The notes below the pieces were generated by a model that was given only the letters and a program-made list of their open reading frames with translations, was not told where the DNA came from and searched no databases. A program made the position numbers and the translations under genes. Of a stretch of 64,000 bases of DNA, positions 1,061-57,834 are shown in pieces. Positions within the stretch are counted from its first letter, which is position 1. The number at the start of each line of letters is the position of its first letter. The stretch comes from Salinimonas chungwhensis DSM 16280 (GTDB lineage: Bacteria > Pseudomonadota > Gammaproteobacteria > Enterobacterales > Alteromonadaceae). The stretch is from the NCBI RefSeq assembly GCF_000378185.1, contig NZ_KB899380.1, positions 124,001 through 188,000 of the forward strand, read 5' to 3'.

Positions 1061-2464
1061 ATGCCATCTTTATCTCATAAAACTGCGACAGCCTTACTGG
1101 TTGCCGCTGCACTATTTATGGAAATTCTGGATGCAACCATCATTACTACCGCGCTGCCGATTATCGCCAGTGAGTTTGGTGTTCCCGCTGCTCATCTGTC
1201 AGTAGGCGTCAGCGCCTACCTTGTTGCCGTTACTATTTTTATTCCGGTTAGCGGCTGGGCGGCAGATCGTTTTGGTGCCAAACGCGTGTTTTCGCTGGCA
1301 ATCCTTATCTTTGTGGGCGCATCAGTACTGTGCGGCCTGAGTGAAACATTACTGCAGTTTACCCTGGCTCGTATACTTCAGGGCATTGGCGGCGCTATGA
1401 TGGTACCTGTGGGCCGTCTGGTGGTACTGCGCAATCTGCCCAAAGAGCAAATTGTCAAAGCCATGGCAATTCTCACGTGGCCGGCCCTGGGCGCCCCGCT
1501 TATTGGACCCGTACTGGGGGGCTGGATTGCACAAACCTGGCATTGGTCATGGATTTTTTTCATCAACATTCCGCTAGGCGCAGTGGCTCTGCTTTTTACC
1601 CATTGGTTATTGAGTAATGAAAAAGGTCAGTGGCAAAAGTTCGACGTTGTTGGATTCACACTTAGTGGATTAGGTTTTGGAATGCTTATGGCGGGGTTGG
1701 AGTCATTCAGTGCCCGACCTGATGATATGACCATACCTGCGCTGCTCGTAGTGGCAGGTGTAGTAATATTAAGTCTTGCGGTTCGCCATATGCTTACCAC
1801 ATCCAACCCGTTATTTTCATTAGCTGCGCTACGGTTTAATACGTTTCGCGCCACCATGACCGGTGGCTCGATTATACGCATAGCATTGTCCAGCGCACCA
1901 TTTATCATTCCTTTGATGCTGCAGGTTGGACTGGGTTACAGCCCTGTCGAGGCTGGCACGCTCCTGTTATGGCTGTTTGCCGGCAACCTGGCAATTAAGC
2001 CGGCGACCACCTGGATTATGAATACATTTGGGTTTAAAAATGTATTGGTTTATAACACGATACTTGTGGCAACCGGCTTTTTCGTACTTGCGCTGTGCAG
2101 TGAAAGCACTGCTGGCTGGGAATTAGGTTTGATTTTATTTTTAAGCGGCATGACCCGCTCCATGCATTTGACAGTGCTAAATACCCTTAGCTTTGCGGAT
2201 GTCCCTCAGACGTATATTCGCGATGCTAATACATTAAGCGCTGTACTTATGCAAATGACGCGCGGCATGGGAATCACTGCCGGCGCATTAGCATTAGCAC
2301 TGGCAACATTTATCATCGACGAATCACGTAATACCCCAGTCACTGCGGACTTTCAGCTTACTATGGTGTTTATGGGCGTTATCGCACTGTTGTCGCTTTT
2401 CAACAGCGTAAGGTTAAAGCCTGGCATTGGAAACGCGGTACTTAACGAACGGCAGGCCTCCTGA
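1061..2464 (+). CDS. MFS drug exporter, DHA2 (EmrB/QacA-like) family
   Basis: This is a 467-residue, almost entirely hydrophobic protein with a major-facilitator layout. The N-terminal helix carries the DHA2 motif LDATIITTALP (about residues 23-33). Motif A follows (GWAADRFGAKRV, about 66-77), then motif B (RILQGIGGAMM, about 104-114) and motif C-like GAPLIGPVLGGWI (about 147-159). These mark a proton-driven exporter of the 14-helix DHA2 type, a group including EmrB and QacA. No EmrA-like membrane-fusion gene is adjacent, so it may act alone in the inner membrane. The substrate cannot be read from sequence. The start codon has only a weak ribosome-binding site. Confidence 0.85.
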   Translation: MPSLSHKTATALLVAAALFMEILDATIITTALPIIASEFGVPAAHLSVGVSAYLVAVTIFIPVSGWAADRFGAKRVFSLAILIFVGASVLCGLSETLLQFTLARILQGIGGAMMVPVGRLVVLRNLPKEQIVKAMAILTWPALGAPLIGPVLGGWIAQTWHWSWIFFINIPLGAVALLFTHWLLSNEKGQWQKFDVVGFTLSGLGFGMLMAGLESFSARPDDMTIPALLVVAGVVILSLAVRHMLTTSNPLFSLAALRFNTFRATMTGGSIIRIALSSAPFIIPLMLQVGLGYSPVEAGTLLLWLFAGNLAIKPATTWIMNTFGFKNVLVYNTILVATGFFVLALCSESTAGWELGLILFLSGMTRSMHLTVLNTLSFADVPQTYIRDANTLSAVLMQMTRGMGITAGALALALATFIIDESRNTPVTADFQLTMVFMGVIALLSLFNSVRLKPGIGNAVLNERQAS

Positions 2465-2661
2465 CCAATTTACTATCTGTAAACGCTACACCGTGGTGTG
2501 CCTTTACTACAATAGTAACCGCCCACGATCCCTCTATCATTTTGAAATATAATGACTTATCTATATAGCACCAAAGTTGCATCTGCGATCCATGAATAGA
2601 TTTCGAGTCGATTAGCAATTTTGCTGATCGCTTACCTTACCCCCCCAATAAGGAGCTTTTC

Positions 2662-3327
2662 GTGAACGCTACTAAGCTAATGCTTGCTTCACTGATTTCA
2701 ACATCACTGTTTGCTACGTCTTCAATCGCACAGGAAACAAATACCAACAGTGTTCCTGTGGCTACCTCGCAGGTCAGCACTACGTGGATGACGCTTACCG
2801 GTAGTGTAACCCGGACCGACCAACAGTCAGTCACCGTCGATTTTGGTGAAGGCGAGATTACCGTGGAAACCGATGCACTAATGCTGGATGAGCGCGCTTT
2901 TGAAAAACTGCAAGGCGCTAGCGTCACTGTAACCGGTATGCTAAATCAAAACCTGCTGGAAAACGGTAAAATGAGAGCAGCAAGTTTATATATGCAGGAT
3001 ATTGGTACTGCCTTTATTGCCTCAGAATCAGTGGAAAATGAATCTGATATGCTTATTTCGGCTGCCGGCGTCGATCTGGATAAAGCCCAGGTCACCCTGA
3101 TCGGCAATGTTAGTGGCGTCACAGATGACACCTTTCAGTTCGATGTCGGCGATGGCACATTGAATATTGAAGTCGATGACCTTAAGGATAATCCACTGGA
3201 CGATGAGGGTTATCTACAGTTGAAACACGGCGATCGGGTAAAAATCACTACCTCCCTGGAAGATGATTTTTTTGAAGACTATGAAGTGAACGCAGAATCT
3301 GTCGTGCGTCTGCAACAGGCAAAATAA
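2662..3327 (+). CDS. Secreted protein with two tandem BOF/OB-like repeats, unknown function
   Basis: A GTG start is chosen because AAGGAG lies 6 bases upstream. The 221-residue product begins with a Sec signal peptide (cleavage probably after SSIAQ, about residue 24). The mature part is acidic and holds two similar beta-rich units: about residues 43-100 (LTGSVTRTDQQSVTVDFGEG) and about 143-210 (LIGNVSGVTDDTFQFDVGDG). The second ends with HGDRVKITTSLEDDFF. The spacing of short strands resembles periplasmic OB-fold (BOF, YgiW-type) domains; that resemblance is by eye. It stands alone, with an MFS gene upstream and a regulator downstream. No function is assigned. Confidence 0.7.
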   Translation: MNATKLMLASLISTSLFATSSIAQETNTNSVPVATSQVSTTWMTLTGSVTRTDQQSVTVDFGEGEITVETDALMLDERAFEKLQGASVTVTGMLNQNLLENGKMRAASLYMQDIGTAFIASESVENESDMLISAAGVDLDKAQVTLIGNVSGVTDDTFQFDVGDGTLNIEVDDLKDNPLDDEGYLQLKHGDRVKITTSLEDDFFEDYEVNAESVVRLQQAK

Positions 3328-3338
3328 ATTTCGCATAC

Positions 3339-3366
3339 CGACAAAGCATCAACCGATGCTTTGTCG
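3339..3366 (+). other. 12-bp hairpin between the secreted-protein gene and the GntR regulator
   Basis: Bases 3339-3350 pair perfectly with 3355-3366 around the loop AACC. No T-run follows, so it is not a classical intrinsic terminator, though it may protect or end the upstream transcript. Its 3' arm overlaps the palindrome TTGTCGACAA proposed as an operator. Confidence 0.5.
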
Positions 3367-3370
3367 ACAA
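3361..3370. promoter_or_regulatory. Candidate GntR operator 1 (TTGTCGACAA)
   Basis: This is a perfect 10-bp palindrome just upstream of the -35 box. It is one of three TTGTCGACA copies seen around the start of the regulator gene. FCD-type GntR regulators typically bind short palindromes with TNGT/ACNA arms, and TTGTcgACAA fits that pattern. Confidence 0.5.
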
Positions 3371-3385
3371 TACCCCGTCCAAATC

Positions 3386-3414
3386 TTGACGCCTCCCGTT
3401 ATTAAGCCTATATT
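3386..3414 (+). promoter_or_regulatory. Sigma-70 promoter of the GntR regulator / prp locus
   Basis: A -35 box TTGACG (3386-3391) and a -10 box TATATT (3409-3414) are separated by exactly 17 bases. Transcription would begin near 3421, about 30 bases before the regulator ATG. The -10 box overlaps operator candidate 2. Confidence 0.75.
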
Positions 3415-3422
3415 GTCGACAC
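3412..3422. promoter_or_regulatory. Candidate GntR operator 2 overlapping the -10 box
   Basis: ATTGTCGACAC shares its first bases with the TATATT box and covers the likely transcription start, so a bound repressor would block polymerase. It matches the in-gene copy at 3564-3574 over 11 of 11 bases. Confidence 0.55.
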
Positions 3423-3450
3423 CACCTCTTTAAATAACGCCAATTTCAAG

Positions 3451-4119
3451 ATGTCATTACCTCTCGAAACGCCTGTTACCAGTGCCGATAAAACATTTTA
3501 TCAATTGCGCACCGACATTGTTGAAGGGGTCATCGGTGCCGGCGCTAAATTAAGCGAAACAGAATTGTCGACACGTTACGCAGTCAGTCGTGCAGTAATC
3601 CGAGAAGCAATTAATCGGCTGGTAGCCTGCCACTTGGTAGAGCGCAAAGCGAATGTGGGCGCCAAGGTTGTAACCTTGTCGGCCGCGGGTCTGGTCCAGC
3701 TATATCAGGTGCGGGAAGCTTTAGAAGGTATGGCTGCCCGGCTAGCAGCGACCAATATGAGTGAAACTGAAATTACGGATTTACAGTCTTTACTTCAGGC
3801 TCATTCTAATAAGGTAAGCAGCGGCGAATCGTATTATCAGGAAGCCGGTGATGTGGACTTTCATTATCGCATAGTCCTGGGTAGCAAGAACACGCATCTT
3901 ATCAGCGTACTTATTGATGGCATCTATCATTTGGTTCGCATGTATCGAGTACAACTGGGTATGGCTGGTCCACGTGTTACCACCGCATTCGAGGAACACA
4001 ACAACATAGTGCGGGCGATTGTTCATCGAGATGGTGAACTGGCAGAAATTTTAATGCGCCGACATATTCTTTACTCGAAAAACAATATTCAACAAAAACT
4101 AAATTCAACCTCATCCTAA
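3451..4119 (+). CDS. GntR-family (FCD subfamily) transcriptional regulator of the methylcitrate locus
   Basis: This is a 222-residue regulator. The N-terminal winged helix-turn-helix (about residues 15-80) includes LRTDIVEGVIGAGAKLSETE and the recognition-helix stretch VSRAVIREAINRL. The C-terminal all-helical FCD domain (about 88-215) carries the metal/ligand-pocket pattern, with DVDFHYRIV and later histidines (EEHNNIV and a C-terminal RRHI). It ends 21 bases before prpB on the same strand, so it probably controls the propionate genes in place of the sigma-54 activator PrpR of E. coli. The ligand may be propionyl-CoA, 2-methylcitrate or a related acid; this is inferred from context. The promoter shows likely autoregulation. 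Confidence 0.85.
   Translation: MSLPLETPVTSADKTFYQLRTDIVEGVIGAGAKLSETELSTRYAVSRAVIREAINRLVACHLVERKANVGAKVVTLSAAGLVQLYQVREALEGMAARLAATNMSETEITDLQSLLQAHSNKVSSGESYYQEAGDVDFHYRIVLGSKNTHLISVLIDGIYHLVRMYRVQLGMAGPRVTTAFEEHNNIVRAIVHRDGELAEILMRRHILYSKNNIQQKLNSTSS
3564..3574. promoter_or_regulatory. Candidate GntR operator 3 inside the regulator coding region
   Basis: ATTGTCGACAC lies 113 bases into the gene and is identical to the copy over the -10 box. It could be a downstream auxiliary operator (looping or roadblock). It could also be chance, since the codons for ELSTR can give this string. Confidence 0.3.
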
Positions 4120-51155: not shown

Positions 51156-52649
51156 ATGCAAGATCCCGTTCGCAAAGTTGTTATCGCCGGGGGAGGCACA
51201 GCTGGATGGATGACAGCAGCCCTGTTAAAAAAGGTGCTTCAGGCGCAGGTTGACATTGAGCTGGTGGAGTCAGAAGATGTTGGCACTATCGGCGTTGGTG
51301 AAGCTACCATTCCACCCATTCAGACATTTAATCAATTTCTGGGGCTGGACGAAAAGGCTTTTTTACGGGAAACCAATGGGACCATTAAGCTTGCCATCGC
51401 ATTTGAAAACTGGCGCAAACAGGGTGAAAGCTACTTTCATACTTTTGGCGCGCCAGGCGCTACGTTAGGAATTTGTGGTTTTCAACATTACTGGTTGCGT
51501 GCCCGAAAAGCGGGTCTGGACGCCTCTTTATGGGATTTTGATCTTAATTATCTTGGCTGCAAGGCCGGTAAATTCAACAAAATCCAGTCGGAAAATCCGG
51601 TTTATAACATGGGCTATGCCTACCATTTTGATTCTACGCTGTATGGTCAGTTTTTACGCCGACTTGCTGAGCAGGCCGGTGCGAAGCGAACTGAAGGTAT
51701 GATTGAACATGTGTCGCTGAATACCAAAACCGGCTTTGTAAATGGTCTGCAGTTAACTGACGGGCGCCAGGTTACGGGCGATTTTTTTATCGACTGTACC
51801 GGTATGCGAAGCCTGTTATTGCAAAAAGCGCTGGGGGTTGCCTATGAAGACTGGTCGCACTGGCTGGCCGCTGATTCCGCGCTGGCTGTGCCGTCACAGC
51901 GCCACCAGCAGACAGCGCCCTATACCCGCAGTATTGCCCGTGAGGTGGGCTGGCAGTGGCGAATTCCCCTGACCCATCGTAATGGTAATGGGCTGGTTTA
52001 CAGCTCAGCATATCTGAATGACGACAAAGCGCGTAATATGTTGATGGATAATCTTGATACAGAGGCCCTCGATGAGCCGCGTAAAATTCGTTTTAAAACC
52101 GGTCGGGCTGAAAAGCAATGGCACAAAAATGTCGTGGCCATTGGTTTGTCCAGCGGCTTTTTGGAGCCTCTGGAATCAACCAGCATTCATCTGATTCAAT
52201 CAGCAATTGTGCGGCTGTTAAAAATGTTTCCAAACAACGCTGTGACCCCTTCCATGGAAGCATTATATAACGAAGAGTCGAAAGACGAATATGAAACCAT
52301 TCGCGATTTCATCATCCTGCATTACTACCTTAACGAACGAGACGATTCTGATTTCTGGCAGGATATGCAGCGGCTAACATTACCTGATAGGCTGGCGCAA
52401 AAGATTAATGCCTTTAAAGATACCGCCACTGTTTTTAATGAACAAAATGATATGTTCCGGGATGCTTCCTGGGTGCAAGTTATGATGGGCCAGGGAATAA
52501 TGCCTGCCGATTATCATCCGTCAGCTGATGTGCACAGTGACTCTGCAATACTTGATATCATGGCAAAAGTCTATGAGGCAAAACAACAACCTATCGCTCA
52601 AATGTTATCTCATGACGACTTTCTGGCCAGGTACACGAAGATTCAATAA
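51156..52649 (+). CDS. Flavin-dependent tryptophan-halogenase-like protein
   Basis: The 497-residue product has the FAD motif VIAGGGTAGWMTAALL and the diagnostic halogenase motif WxWxIP (W266, W268, P271 in GWQWRIP). The two catalytic residues of PrnA-type enzymes are also present: lysine at K78 (TNGTIKLAIAFENW) and the glutamate/serine pair at E340-S341 (EPLEST). It should therefore be a competent halogenase using hypohalous acid on an indole or phenol, with reduced flavin from an unlinked reductase. No biosynthetic genes or TonB receptor are adjacent, so the substrate is open. AAGGA lies 9 bases before ATG 51156. Confidence 0.85.
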   Translation: MQDPVRKVVIAGGGTAGWMTAALLKKVLQAQVDIELVESEDVGTIGVGEATIPPIQTFNQFLGLDEKAFLRETNGTIKLAIAFENWRKQGESYFHTFGAPGATLGICGFQHYWLRARKAGLDASLWDFDLNYLGCKAGKFNKIQSENPVYNMGYAYHFDSTLYGQFLRRLAEQAGAKRTEGMIEHVSLNTKTGFVNGLQLTDGRQVTGDFFIDCTGMRSLLLQKALGVAYEDWSHWLAADSALAVPSQRHQQTAPYTRSIAREVGWQWRIPLTHRNGNGLVYSSAYLNDDKARNMLMDNLDTEALDEPRKIRFKTGRAEKQWHKNVVAIGLSSGFLEPLESTSIHLIQSAIVRLLKMFPNNAVTPSMEALYNEESKDEYETIRDFIILHYYLNERDDSDFWQDMQRLTLPDRLAQKINAFKDTATVFNEQNDMFRDASWVQVMMGQGIMPADYHPSADVHSDSAILDIMAKVYEAKQQPIAQMLSHDDFLARYTKIQ

Positions 52650-52743: not shown

Positions 52744-54129
52744 CTAACGGGAAACCAGCGCAGCAGGAAGTTGCGCTGACACATAGTACAATGCCAGTTG
52801 TGCTCTGAGCTCATCAACCTTTGCTGAAATTAACTTTAGCTGTGCCTTTATAAAGGTAATCTGACGGGCGTTTAGTACAAATACATCGGTATCTCCAATA
52901 TCAAACCGGGTTTTTTCCACCGCTTGCAAGCGCTCAGCCAATGCGGCAGCTTGCTGATTTAATTCAGTAAGATCCTGACTTTGTTGCCACTTTGCTACCG
53001 CTGTATCGAATTGCTGGGCCAGCTTTTGTTCGGCATCGGCGAGCTTGAATGTCATTTCACGCAACTTGGCTTGCGCACCGGCAGCTTTCGCCTTGGCTTT
53101 GCGGTTGCCCAGCGGATAGTTAAAATCCAGTCCCACTTTGGTATCGGTTTGCATAAGGGAGGTCGGCCCACTACCTAAATCTCTGGCCAGTTCGGCTTTC
53201 ATATCCAGTTTGGGTAACAAATTGTTTTGCGCCAGACGTTGCTTGTTACGCTGTTGTTTTATCGCCAGGTTCAAATCATCTGTTAATGGATGCACAGTCA
53301 GATGATGGCGCAAATCACTCAATTGTGTGTGATTGACCTGATAAGGCCATTGCTGGCTGTTAATCACCGGTTCAGCCCGGGTCACCCATTTAGGCGGTAC
53401 ATAATAAAACAGCTTAGTCGCAGCAGCTTGCAGCTTTTGTCTTTCGGTTGCTTTTAGCAAATCAATTTCAAGCAGATTGGCTTCAAATGCCTGCAGCACA
53501 ACCTGCGCTTCATCACCTTGCTCCACCTTACGCACCAACACATTTTCCTGTTTTTCCAATGTGCGGCGTAATTCATTAAGTCGTTCTATTTTAAGATGGC
53601 TTTCGTACCAGTCCAGATAGGTCATTGCAGCAGAGTACATTAGCTTATTGACCCCCAGTAAATAACTGGTTTGCCAGCGCTCTATAGCAAGCCGGGCGTT
53701 CTGCTGCGCCGTACGGCGGTCATCTGTTTCTCGTCCGCGTAACAAAGATAACCTGACGCCCACTGCTGCTTCGCCACCAGATAATGTATCGTACTGCCCG
53801 TTATAATCCGGGAAATCACCGTCGGCAATACGATACTGGCTGTACACCTCACCATTCATGGTTGAAAGCGGCTGTGAAAATTCACTGGTGGAGACATCCC
53901 CGGAATAGTACCCAGACAAGCGACTGTTGACCGACTGGGCCACATACGGATCAAACGCAGCATCGGCACTTTCCAGTTCGAATCGCTGTTGTTCACCCTG
54001 TTGTTCAATAGCTTGCAAATAAGGATGTGAGGTCATTACATGGGTAAGCATTTCAGATAACGATAACGTCTCGGCCCTGGCCGGATATACACCCATTAAA
54101 GTTAACGCCAGCAACAACCATGGCTTCAT
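52744..54129 (-). CDS. TolC-family outer-membrane channel protein
   Basis: The 461-residue product has a signal peptide (about 1-19, ending ARA) and two long alpha-helical repeats with beta-strand segments, the outer-membrane-factor layout. Typical marks are LSLSEMLTHVMTSHPYLQAI at the start and the paired helix region EKTRFDIGDTDVFVLNARQ near residue 415, which corresponds to the TolC Y-x-x-G-x-x-x-x-x-x-x-x-L-x-A motif. It is the third gene of a coupled export operon, starting one base within the stop codon of the HlyD gene. Confidence 0.85.
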   Translation of the reverse strand: MKPWLLLALTLMGVYPARAETLSLSEMLTHVMTSHPYLQAIEQQGEQQRFELESADAAFDPYVAQSVNSRLSGYYSGDVSTSEFSQPLSTMNGEVYSQYRIADGDFPDYNGQYDTLSGGEAAVGVRLSLLRGRETDDRRTAQQNARLAIERWQTSYLLGVNKLMYSAAMTYLDWYESHLKIERLNELRRTLEKQENVLVRKVEQGDEAQVVLQAFEANLLEIDLLKATERQKLQAAATKLFYYVPPKWVTRAEPVINSQQWPYQVNHTQLSDLRHHLTVHPLTDDLNLAIKQQRNKQRLAQNNLLPKLDMKAELARDLGSGPTSLMQTDTKVGLDFNYPLGNRKAKAKAAGAQAKLREMTFKLADAEQKLAQQFDTAVAKWQQSQDLTELNQQAAALAERLQAVEKTRFDIGDTDVFVLNARQITFIKAQLKLISAKVDELRAQLALYYVSAQLPAALVSR

Positions 54130-55163
54130 TATTTTTCTGCCTTCATCTTATTATCGAGCACTACCGGCTTCGGCGGAAAGTTGTTCAATTGCCGCCACAA
54201 TTCGTAGCCCAGGCGCACTTCTTCAAGTAATACCCACGCTTTAACCCTGCTGCCAAACCGTACAACCTGCTCCTGTGGCCAGGGTTGTCCTTCAGGATCT
54301 GGCGCTATCCAGACGTTAAAATTACCAATATTGTCGGCTACTGGCTCAACGTAAATCACTTCGCCGCCAAAAGTGCCGATGGCGGCTTCCGGCCAGCCAC
54401 TAAACTGAAAGACCGGCCAGCCCTCAAATTGTAGTCTGGCTTTTCTACCCACTTCAATTAAAGGTGCGTCCATACCACTGACCGTGACCCTGACATGACG
54501 CTGGACGCCTTCAGGAATAAACTCACCCAGTACTTCACCAGCTTTCACATAGGTAGACGGACCGCCGGACTTAAGTTTGATAACCACCCCATCAGAGGGC
54601 GCAACCTTGGTCTGGGTACGTTGCCGTGACAACGAAACACTTGCTTTATTTATGTCAGACTGCGACTTAGCCGCTTTAGCAACAAGTTCCTGTAGCTTTA
54701 TCTGGGCCGCCTCAACGGTCTTATCCGAGGCCACCCCTTGCTCCAGCAGCGTTTGTTGGCGATTCAGATTATTGCGCGCATTAGCTACTGCGCTCTGATT
54801 TGCAGCATGGACAGCCTGCGCGGCATCAAGCTGGGCCTGCAGCTTACTCACCAATTCCTCGTCAACATCGATCAGTGTAACAATCGGCTGGCCCTGTTCT
54901 ACCAGCTCACCTTCATTAACATGCCATTGTTTTATCTGTCCTGATACCAGCGCTGATATTGCCTGAGTACGCTGGGCAGGATCCAGTGAGTCCACCTGAC
55001 CGGTTCCATAAGCCGTTTGCACCCATGGTGTGAACCACAACAATGCAGCAACCAGAATGACTAACACCACAACGACCCCTGCCAGTATTTTATAGGCACT
55101 GGGAAGATAGTCGTTTCTTAATGCAGAGATTTTATCCAGATAGCGCGCTTCGTTATGATGCAT
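54129..55163 (-). CDS. HlyD-type membrane-fusion (periplasmic adaptor) protein
   Basis: ATG 55163 is preferred over the in-frame start at 55202, which overlaps the ABC gene by 50 bases. The 344-residue product has one transmembrane helix (about residues 22-45) and a lipoyl/biotinyl half-motif, SGQIKQWHVNEGELVEQGQP. An alpha-helical hairpin follows (about 95-175), then the second lipoyl half (VAPSDGVVIKLKSGG) and a beta-barrel. It bridges an inner-membrane ABC-type protein and the TolC-like channel, both encoded in the same operon. Confidence 0.85.
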   Translation of the reverse strand: MHHNEARYLDKISALRNDYLPSAYKILAGVVVVLVILVAALLWFTPWVQTAYGTGQVDSLDPAQRTQAISALVSGQIKQWHVNEGELVEQGQPIVTLIDVDEELVSKLQAQLDAAQAVHAANQSAVANARNNLNRQQTLLEQGVASDKTVEAAQIKLQELVAKAAKSQSDINKASVSLSRQRTQTKVAPSDGVVIKLKSGGPSTYVKAGEVLGEFIPEGVQRHVRVTVSGMDAPLIEVGRKARLQFEGWPVFQFSGWPEAAIGTFGGEVIYVEPVADNIGNFNVWIAPDPEGQPWPQEQVVRFGSRVKAWVLLEEVRLGYELWRQLNNFPPKPVVLDNKMKAEK

Positions 55164-56829
55164 GAGGCTCTCCGTCAGCGACATGTACGCTCGAAGAAGC
55201 AAGGTCTTCCAGGGTCACGGTTTGATCAAAAAAGCGGTCATTCGGCGCGTTGGTGAAATATAGTACGGTAGCATTTATATTTTCCAGCACCTTAAGCAAA
55301 TGCAGCCTGGTCGCTGCTGGAATTGCATCAAAATGCTGATTGACCAGTACAATGCTGGGTTTGGTTAAGATGGTCGCAGCCAGTTTTAACAACAGTAATT
55401 CTACAGGTTGAAGTGGGTTGCCCATCACCGATAAGGTCGTGTCCAGCCCGTCCGGCAACTCTTCTATCGTTTCATAAAGATGAACCTGACGCAGTGCATC
55501 GTACACTTCTCCGCTACCCGCGTCCGGCGCCGCCATTTTAAAGTATTCTTTAACCGTACATTCTACCATCAGCGCCCGATCTATCGTGGATATGCATTGC
55601 CGAAGCTCAAAGATATCGTAATCCTGGAGGGCTTTTTCGCCCAGAAAGATAACTCCCCGGGGAGCATTTTCGTGACGCTTGATAAAACTGACCAACTGCT
55701 TCTGCATCCACGCATGCTTAGTCATGACGAAGCACTTTTGGCCCGCAGGTACTGACCAGGTTAATGAATAATTATGATGAGTGTGTTTCAGTTTGACGTG
55801 ATCAAACCGTAACGCCGAAGATGCCGGTAATGCCTGCTGAGTTTGATCGGCATCTTCCTGGGGCATTTTGAGTGCGCCACCCAGCTTTTCTGCTGCACCA
55901 TATAGCTCATAGTAAAGCTTAAGATAGATAGAAAACCGGGAGATCCCTAAAAATACGGCTGACATAATTAGCTCGGCCGCTACCAGTTGCCCCAAGGATA
56001 ATTGCCCCTGAACAACCAGGTAGCCGCCAATACCAAGTAACGAAGCGCTGGCAGCAGCATATAGCAACAGAAACATCACAGCCTGGGTGAAGGTAAACCG
56101 AAAATGCTGCCGATGAGCACTTAGGTAGCCTTCAATGTGCTTTTGTGTGTTGCCCGCGGCATAGTCAAGATGGCGACTGGATTTGAAAAACTCGTGGGCA
56201 GCGGCGATATCACTAAGCCATTTTGCCCCATCATATTTTGCCTGAGATAGGCGAACTGCAGAGCGTTTGGCGCCTTTTCCCCATATTTTCCATATACCCA
56301 GCATGACGAGCAGAATGAGTATATTAAATGCAAAAAATGCCGGATGATAAAAACTCACCAGGGTAAACCCAACCAGCATTTGTAGTACAAGCGCGAAACC
56401 GTCAATCATCAGTGAAGGAATGTTTTTCTGCAGCGTCATAATATCAAAATAACGCTGCGTGATGGCCACATTACGACGACCTTCGAAAAAGCGGTGGGGG
56501 GCAAAGATTGTTTTCAGGCTCAGCTGAGACGTCAGTCGCGAATAGACTTTACGTTCATAATATTCCATCACACGCATACGCAGAGCACTGAAAATCCCAG
56601 AGACAAGCAGGATAATAAACAATACCACGGCCAGCGTAATAACAGCCTGAACCGACGCCGTATTTACCACACTATTAATAAGCGTCTGTACCGCCAATGG
56701 CACTGCCAGCGTTAACAGACCAATTGCCACACCATAGACAATCGCGGCGGTAAAAAAATGCCGATCTGGTTTCAATAGCGAGAATAATGTTTTGCGAACA
56801 GATTTGAGATCTATATTTTTGGCCATCAT
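55153..56829 (-). CDS. ABC exporter-like protein with catalytically degenerate nucleotide-binding domain
   Basis: The 558-residue product has an exporter-type six-helix membrane half (about 25-310) followed by a domain collinear with an ABC ATPase (about 338-545). None of the ATPase motifs survives. The Walker A place reads CFVMTKHAWMQKQL (366-379). The Q-loop place is ISTID. The signature LSGGQ place reads NPLQPVELL. Walker B reads IVLVNQHFDA (D to N497, E to Q498). The H-loop histidine place reads FTNAP. The frame is intact and coupled to hlyD (11-base overlap). It is either a pseudo-ATPase scaffold, half of a heterodimer with an unlinked ATPase, or a non-ATP-driven porter. The substrate is unknown. 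Confidence 0.82.
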   Translation of the reverse strand: MMAKNIDLKSVRKTLFSLLKPDRHFFTAAIVYGVAIGLLTLAVPLAVQTLINSVVNTASVQAVITLAVVLFIILLVSGIFSALRMRVMEYYERKVYSRLTSQLSLKTIFAPHRFFEGRRNVAITQRYFDIMTLQKNIPSLMIDGFALVLQMLVGFTLVSFYHPAFFAFNILILLVMLGIWKIWGKGAKRSAVRLSQAKYDGAKWLSDIAAAHEFFKSSRHLDYAAGNTQKHIEGYLSAHRQHFRFTFTQAVMFLLLYAAASASLLGIGGYLVVQGQLSLGQLVAAELIMSAVFLGISRFSIYLKLYYELYGAAEKLGGALKMPQEDADQTQQALPASSALRFDHVKLKHTHHNYSLTWSVPAGQKCFVMTKHAWMQKQLVSFIKRHENAPRGVIFLGEKALQDYDIFELRQCISTIDRALMVECTVKEYFKMAAPDAGSGEVYDALRQVHLYETIEELPDGLDTTLSVMGNPLQPVELLLLKLAATILTKPSIVLVNQHFDAIPAATRLHLLKVLENINATVLYFTNAPNDRFFDQTVTLEDLASSSVHVADGEPHAS

Positions 56830-56925: not shown

Positions 56926-57834
56926 ATGCATCAACTTAATTATCGTCACCTCTATTACTTCTACCTTACAGCGAAGCTTGGCAGTATTGCCAGCGCAGCA
57001 AAAACATTACATGTTACTCCCCAGACTGTCAGTGGACTGCTTTCAACATTTGAGGCACAGTGTGGTCAGCCCCTATTTGACCGTATTGGCAAACGGTTGC
57101 AGCCCAATGCAATGGGAAAGCAGGTGTATCAGCATGCTCAGGAAATATTTAAAAAAGGTAATGAGCTGGCCGAACTGCTGCGCTCAGGCGATGCGCAAAC
57201 ATCTAACGAGTACACCGTAGGTCTGACCGACGCGATTCCAAAAGTGCTGGCATATGAATTTATCCACCAGACAATGCTAGCTAACCCTAAGGTACGCTTT
57301 GTCTTTAAGGAAGGTTTATTTGATGATTTACTAAGCGAAATGGCTGTGAACCGAATTGACATAGTCCTTGCTGATCGTGGCGTCGCCCCCGGGGCAGCCG
57401 TGAGCGCGGTGGGTCATTCACTGGGTACCAGCGCGGTCAGCTTTTTTGCCAGCATGCCATTAGCTAACCGCCTTAAAGCGGAATTTCCTGACTCATTAAA
57501 CCAGGCCGCGATGCTGATGCCCGGCGTCAGGTCGGGGATAGCGTTTGGTCTTAGTGCATGGCTAGAGGATCGCCAGTTATTCCCCAAACAAGTAGCAGAA
57601 TTTGACGACAGCGCGTTGCTCAAACTGTTTGGCGCAGAGGGCTTTGGTGTATTTTGTGCGCCTTCATGCATAGCAGAACATGTGGAACAACAATACCAGG
57701 TGCGCTGGATTGGCCAGGCCGATACACTGCAGGAACACTTTTTTGCATTAACCCGCCATAACCAAACCAATACGACCATTGCGCGGCAAATTATAGACCA
57801 TGCCACGGCACTGTTAGCAGCCCCTGCTCGCTAG
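56926..57834 (+). CDS. LysR-family transcriptional regulator, NhaR-like
   Basis: The 302-residue product has an N-terminal winged helix-turn-helix (about residues 4-62: LNYRHLYYFYLTAKLGSIAS, then the recognition helix VTPQTVSGLLSTFEAQCG). The effector domain follows (about 92-295). The start LNYRHLYYF and the helix TPQTVS resemble NhaR, the Na/H antiporter regulator. However, no nhaA is adjacent, and the divergent partner is the ABC/HlyD/TolC operon, which it probably controls. Its stop codon overlaps the convergent HPt-HD-GYP gene stop. Confidence 0.85.
   Translation: MHQLNYRHLYYFYLTAKLGSIASAAKTLHVTPQTVSGLLSTFEAQCGQPLFDRIGKRLQPNAMGKQVYQHAQEIFKKGNELAELLRSGDAQTSNEYTVGLTDAIPKVLAYEFIHQTMLANPKVRFVFKEGLFDDLLSEMAVNRIDIVLADRGVAPGAAVSAVGHSLGTSAVSFFASMPLANRLKAEFPDSLNQAAMLMPGVRSGIAFGLSAWLEDRQLFPKQVAEFDDSALLKLFGAEGFGVFCAPSCIAEHVEQQYQVRWIGQADTLQEHFFALTRHNQTNTTIARQIIDHATALLAAPAR

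Follow-up and report, generated by a model that had tools for sequence, protein, structure and literature searches.

A gene in the 64,000-nucleotide stretch of Salinimonas chungwhensis DSM 16280 DNA that we analyzed (the window) encodes an ABC-exporter-like protein in which an exporter membrane domain is followed by a pseudo-nucleotide-binding domain (pseudo-NBD) that has lost its ATPase motifs. Beyond this one gene, the loss characterizes a family with members in at least two phyla, and the family gene is retained next to a gene for a HlyD-type adaptor and, in most loci, one for a TolC-like duct. As the motor parts have been lost yet the pump has been kept across several bacterial groups, there is probably another power source. 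We therefore put forward, tentatively and at somewhat less than even confidence, a model in which the three proteins would form an ATP-independent tripartite exporter driven by an ion gradient, most likely of protons or sodium, with the NBDs as a scaffold and two membrane-domain residues, E286 and H162, as candidate coupling residues.

Organization of the triad

The ABC-exporter-like protein (558 aa) is encoded at 55153..56829 on the minus strand, and the frame that the sequence-only reading had called intact is present over this whole span. The membrane domain (residues ~24-319; 55873..56760, minus strand) is its best conserved part, and the pseudo-NBD occupies residues 338-545 (55195..55818, minus strand). 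The adjacent gene encodes a HlyD-type periplasmic adaptor (54129..55163, minus strand), read from the Met at 55163, which is the conserved start; the ORF itself is open up to a TTG at 55202 (ORF span 54129-55202). The C-terminal tail of this adaptor, GYELWRQLNNFPP, is a mark of the family. The third gene encodes a TolC-like outer-membrane factor (52744..54129, minus strand; PF02321, 74.8 bits). The gene overlaps described earlier were recovered: the HlyD ORF overlaps the ABC-like ORF, and the TolC-like ORF starts on the last base of HlyD (54129).

A LysR-type regulator is encoded divergently (56926..57834, plus strand). With a counterpart in just 12 of the 17 named close loci (see below), it is an optional neighbor, and it gives no clue to the substrate. 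On the other side of the triad, and convergent with it, lies a tryptophan halogenase gene (window 51156-52649; PF04820, 610.7 bits). Two tandem copies of this gene are found at the triad in L033 and L047, and L040 has a more distant relative upstream of the triad; none was found in the examined flanks of the remaining 14 named loci.

An NBD-derived domain without ATPase motifs

The sole Pfam match of the window protein was ABC_membrane (54 bits, cutoff 28; residues 28-293), which identifies a PF00664-type membrane domain, and ABC_tran (PF00005) gave no match at E<=1. Full-length HlyB, MsbA and CydC profiles, all scoring far below their NCBIfam cutoffs, align collinearly through the NBD, as do exporter sequences from the PDB (BmrA, 9h8n, E 4.5e-19, residues 8-515). 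These collinear alignments indicate that residues ~338-545 derive from an NBD.

We assigned the motif slots by alignment with 10 canonical exporters, and all five motifs proved to be lost, as had been claimed. In the Walker A slot (residues 370-377, TKHAWMQK; 55699..55722) the lysine is replaced by Q376; the Q-loop slot holds D417 (55579..55581); LQPVE replaces LSGGQ in the signature slot (residues 473-477; 55399..55413); the Walker B slot (55336..55353) ends in N497-Q498 in place of D-E; and the H-loop slot holds N527 (55249..55251), all on the minus strand. W374, Q376, D417, N497 and Q498 are invariant in the 16 close relatives aligned. With Walker A, the signature and the Walker B D-E all replaced, the protein falls outside what is expected of an ATP-driven ABC exporter. 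Walker A and LSGG[QE] are kept in all 8 other PF00664 proteins of the same genome.

The AlphaFold model of the pseudo-NBD (pLDDT 79, pTM 0.77) was better than that of the full-length protein, and a Foldseek comparison with the PDB matched it to ABC NBDs (best E 9.0e-12; TMq 0.73 to P-glycoprotein), so that an NBD fold is predicted for this domain. The full-length model was modest (pLDDT 65, pTM 0.56). It matched PCAT1, TM287/288 and, as the fourth-ranked match, HlyB, at TM-scores of about 0.57; the rmsd was large, so that its domain arrangement is unreliable. The membrane domain was weak in this model (10-residue means of 38-74), and E286 and H162 can therefore not be placed in space. Sequence, model and family members that still match PF00005 (see below) thus back the earlier view of residues 338-545 as an ABC-ATPase-like domain, and together they rule out a C-terminal domain unrelated to ABC proteins.

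The motif losses are shared by close relatives

Within the genus, 27 of the 36 genomes, its own included, gave a match at E<=1e-40 (57-84% identity), and none of these matches contains an internal stop. Eighteen named loci were retrieved, namely 17 with close copies, from Alteromonas, Paraglaciecola, several metagenome bins and one record named Endozoicomonas sp. G2_1, and L049, which encodes a distant canonical ABC protein. The motif slots were lost in 44/44 close copies aligned, several of these being one gene fetched through two collections. The replacement letters are themselves mostly conserved in the 44 copies, with a few variants each (W-x-Q, LRQ...DR(S/A)L, PLQPLE, NQHFDAIP and TVLYFTN).

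For L006/L007, the pair with the least saturated dS, we obtained a dN of 0.039 and a dS of 1.51 (ratio 0.026); most other pairs are dS-saturated, so only a low dN can be stated for them. The expectation that homologues would share the losses, with dN/dS below 1, was borne out: none of the 44 close copies has intact motifs, and the ratio is far below 1 where it is measurable. Together, these two results rule out recent decay.

Graded motif loss in a wider family

A HlyD profile search gave matches in 14 of the 369 genomes of the class, and a broader HlyD profile in 11 of the 398 genomes of the phylum, the own and same-genus genomes included in both cases. A family ABC-like gene adjoins each of the 18 distinct HlyD matches outside the own genus (L073-L084, L105-L110). 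In plasmids, tblastn found Sphingomonadales members at 36-40% identity and Bacteroidota members at about 24%, and the seven plasmid loci fetched were triads again. By these profile and plasmid searches, the family ranges over Gammaproteobacteria, others included, Sphingomonadales and Bacteroidota, the last represented by plasmid records only, of which three were fetched.

We compared 41 aligned rows, comprising the window protein, 15 named close loci, L066-L084 and L105-L110. The LSGGQ signature is kept in none of them, the P-loop in three (L083, L110 and L072) and the Walker B D-E in one (L083). In the 10 canonical exporters aligned alongside, the signature is present in 9/10 (the tenth has LSEGQ), and the P-loop and the Walker B D-E in 10/10 each. 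A few members, such as L075 and L081, retain an H-loop-like His, so the loss of the H-loop is not universal. PF00005 scored above its cutoff in five of the eight other members scanned (L083, 74.6 bits; L110, 63.8; L072, 61.6; L070, 55.7; L078, 29.9) and gave no match in L066, L067 and L079. Judged by these scores, the members form a graded bridge from a normal NBD to a pseudo-NBD. In L079, the ABC-like protein matched no Pfam family at E<=0.01.

A tree built from the membrane-domain columns, from which L084 was left out as L046 and L084 are apparently one gene fetched twice, placed 40 family rows together, to one side of a branch supported at 98/99. Closest to the family base are L110 and, with weak support (81/38), L083; the branches of the outgroup are long. 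On a simple reading, loss of the signature came first, and the P-loop disappeared later, more than once. Since L083 and L110 keep the P-loop and match PF00005, ATP binding may persist in these near-base members. The L083 protein (1586-3655), whose NBD is the most intact, carries about 160 extra N-terminal residues, for which no Pfam match was found at E<=0.01.

Linkage and neighborhood of the triad

For gene order we used 41 loci (17 named close loci, L066-L083 and L105-L110), a set that overlaps the 41 rows without being identical to them. The ABC-like gene is followed by the HlyD gene in 41/41 loci, and a TolC-like gene is third in 38/41 (36 by sequence match, plus L083 and L110 by Pfam OEP), which agrees with the earlier impression of a maintained set. 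Because 17 of the 41 loci were found through HlyD, the HlyD linkage is independent only for the 17 named close loci and the 7 plasmid loci, which were found through the ABC-like protein. No TolC-like gene was detected beside the triad genes in L079, which was read gene by gene, L080 or L082, all from one small-genome genus.

Apart from the triad, none of the genes in the window is shared by all 17 named loci. In L066, on Sphingobium plasmid pHAL16, a DUF2309 gene (1362-3914) lies directly upstream of the triad; we take DUF2309 to be the DabA inorganic-carbon uptake family. A strict motif pattern found no exporter-type ATPase beside the triad in the flanks of the 41 loci (4 to 13.7 kb of DNA per locus). 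The ATPase matches in these flanks, named by eye, were ABC-F-like directly downstream of the triad (L032), distantly FtsE-like (L078) and UvrA-like next to the triad (L109); we rejected them as partners because they are absent from the other loci and none is exporter-like. A defence role, for which PADLOC gave no match, was set aside as unsupported, as was phage carriage, for which two Listeria phage records gave the only matches, at 32% query coverage.

Purifying selection is centered on the membrane domain

Over 23 genomes, mean identity to the own protein was 75.4% in the membrane domain and 46.9% in the pseudo-NBD, compared with 79.4% in the membrane domain and 78.4% in the NBD of an MsbA-like control in the same genomes. 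Purifying selection is thus centered on the membrane domain while the pseudo-NBD drifts. The invariance of W374, N497 and Q498 in close relatives nevertheless indicates that the pseudo-NBD is not free to vanish and does something. In G002, G023, G033 and G026 the MsbA-like match is disrupted, by a stop within it in three of these genomes and by a split in the fourth, which could be an assembly or alignment artefact.

In a 31-row scan, all 15 fully invariant columns fell within the membrane domain. When 16 columns were recounted on 41 rows, 11 were invariant (L41, P44, Q48, R126, F128, Q150, Y161, G268, G280, E286 and Y307), and the H162 column had His in 40/41. E286 (55972..55974, minus strand), early in TM6 in the stretch GQLVAAE, is Glu in 41/41 rows and lies within the TM6 hydropathy peak. 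H162 (56344..56346, minus strand) lies where the TM3 and TM4 hydropathy peaks join, in a turn of the model. Neither the Glu nor the His has a counterpart at these positions in any of the 10 canonical exporters compared, L091-L093 being among those that align poorly in TM6. The adaptor tail is strongly conserved, as is the membrane domain as a whole.

A model of ATP-independent, ion-driven export

That the catalytic residues are lost but the membrane domain, the adaptor and the duct are kept points to ATP-independent transport. Our model suggests that the inner-membrane protein would be a dimer-type ABC exporter which, together with the adaptor and the outer-membrane duct, would export a substrate that is probably a small molecule. 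Its NBDs, without canonical ATP binding or hydrolysis, would act as a dimerization or gating scaffold. The membrane domain itself would couple transport to its driving force, most likely a proton or sodium gradient, with E286 in TM6 and H162 in the TM3/TM4 turn as the candidate ion-coupling residues.

We hypothesize this coupling from the invariance of the two residues and from published work on NBD-less exporters. In the accessible parts of two reports, the membrane domains of LmrA and MsbA without NBDs are described as carrying out proton-coupled drug transport, and a TM6 glutamate, E314, was required for proton-coupled transport in LmrA (PMC6155054, PMC4979069). According to the same parts, full-length LmrA and MsbA in cells or bilayers used nucleotide along with the gradient, and LmrA-MD gave no current under conditions where ATP started a current in full-length LmrA. 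Compared by residue number and without alignment, E286 does not appear to correspond to LmrA E314. The conserved E286 and H162 are thus only a hint of ion-coupled transport, and both could serve structure or HlyD contact instead.

One alternative, doubtful to us but worth serious consideration, is that there is no active pump and the ABC fold has turned into a gated channel, a regulator or an assembly platform for the HlyD-TolC duct. The substrate would then pass downhill, or the protein would act as a sensor; CFTR and SUR have taken such a course within the ABC superfamily. The loss of every ATPase motif, the strong conservation seen in the adaptor tail and throughout the membrane domain, and the CFTR and SUR precedents are all consistent with such a role. 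However, CFTR and SUR retain ATP binding, the family-specific Glu and His hint at coupling, and a path through both membranes that is permanently open would presumably be costly.

A partnership, in a heterodimer or larger complex, in which the protein would be the silent member and a canonical ABC half or a stand-alone ATPase would come from another locus of the genome, seems unlikely to us. Silent halves of known heterodimers still contribute their LSGGQ to the site that works, but here the signature for the partner's site is present in 0/41 rows, and the motif pattern found no partner half in the examined flanks of the 41 loci. Heterodimeric exporters in which one site is degenerate, such as TmrAB, are familiar from the portion of the literature available to us (PMC8277102), and a partner would be at hand among the 8 other PF00664 proteins of the genome with intact motifs. 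Four of these eight were searched for in 35 genus genomes and were present in 35, 35, 34 and 32. Three are near universal, so that partnership is neither supported nor excluded for them, and for the fourth (L087, 32/35) no match was obtained at E<=1e-100 in G009, whose genome is a single contig and carries the triad. Thus, none of the four tracks the triad, which, together with the lack of a linked partner and the missing signature, makes this arrangement less likely.

We consider it improbable that the pseudo-NBD binds and uses ATP by an unrecognized chemistry based on its own letters W374, Q376, D417, N497 and Q498. Although these are invariant in the 16 close relatives and the P-loop is retained in L083, L110 and L072, the letters are not kept together across the wider family, and the pseudo-NBD changes far faster than an active NBD. 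Finally, recent pseudogenization or a sequencing artefact, which motif loss by itself would suggest, has next to no probability given the losses common to all 44 close copies with largely conserved replacements, the ratio of 0.026 in the best measurable pair and the 27 genus matches without an internal stop.

Significance and comparison with known systems

ABC exporters are defined by their use of ATP, and a natural motor-less family makes pumping by the membrane domain alone directly testable. That the membrane domain could be a physiological ion-driven pump on its own has so far been argued from truncated LmrA and MsbA, in the accessible parts of the reports (PMC6155054, PMC4979069). The motor-less but otherwise retained family spans Gammaproteobacteria, Sphingomonadales and Bacteroidota. 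It also matters for annotation, since three of its P-loop-less plasmid members, L066, L068 and L071, carry the name 'ABC transporter ATP-binding protein' in their records. Judged by its description, HlyBD2-OMP2 of Blastomonas fulva T2, with a 1659-bp hlyB adjoining hlyD2 and omp2, is probably a further member. In the available part of that paper, each gene is compared with Novosphingobium aromaticivorans proteins, and the system is filed as an ABC-type HlyB pump, with its NBD not remarked upon (PMC9505733). Among the matches listed in our literature searches, none describes the family; some queries were very narrow, making this weak evidence of absence. With slightly more reserve than for the mechanism itself, we propose that a natural, cross-phylum ABC-fold family, in which an ion gradient rather than ATP would drive a HlyD-TolC conduit, may form a distinct energy class of tripartite exporters.

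The triad has the same kinds of parts in the same order as type I secretion by HlyB-HlyD-TolC (TIGR01846; PDB 7sgr/8dck). HlyB is the best NCBIfam match of the window protein, at 90.8 bits against a cutoff of 725.55, and every family listed for either the ABC-like protein or the adaptor stays below its cutoff. In contrast to type I secretion, the window protein has no ATPase motifs, so that, judged by this loss, it would not be an ATP-hydrolyzing inner-membrane protein, and Pfam detected no extra N-terminal domain in it.

The TmrAB and TM287/288 heterodimers likewise include an ABC exporter half with non-canonical NBD residues. Here, however, no partner gene lies in the examined flanks, and the loss goes beyond the catalytic Glu to both faces of the site, the signature among them. 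EmrAB-TolC and AcrAB-TolC carry out tripartite export driven by ion gradients, with an MFS or RND protein in the inner membrane. The triad would share this principle, but its inner-membrane part has the ABC exporter fold. Closest in lacking a working NBD are LmrA-MD and MsbA-MD, which reportedly use ion gradients (PMC6155054, PMC4979069, in their accessible parts); those are laboratory truncations of ATP pumps, whereas the family described here is natural and conserved, and has a pseudo-NBD, an adaptor and a duct of its own.
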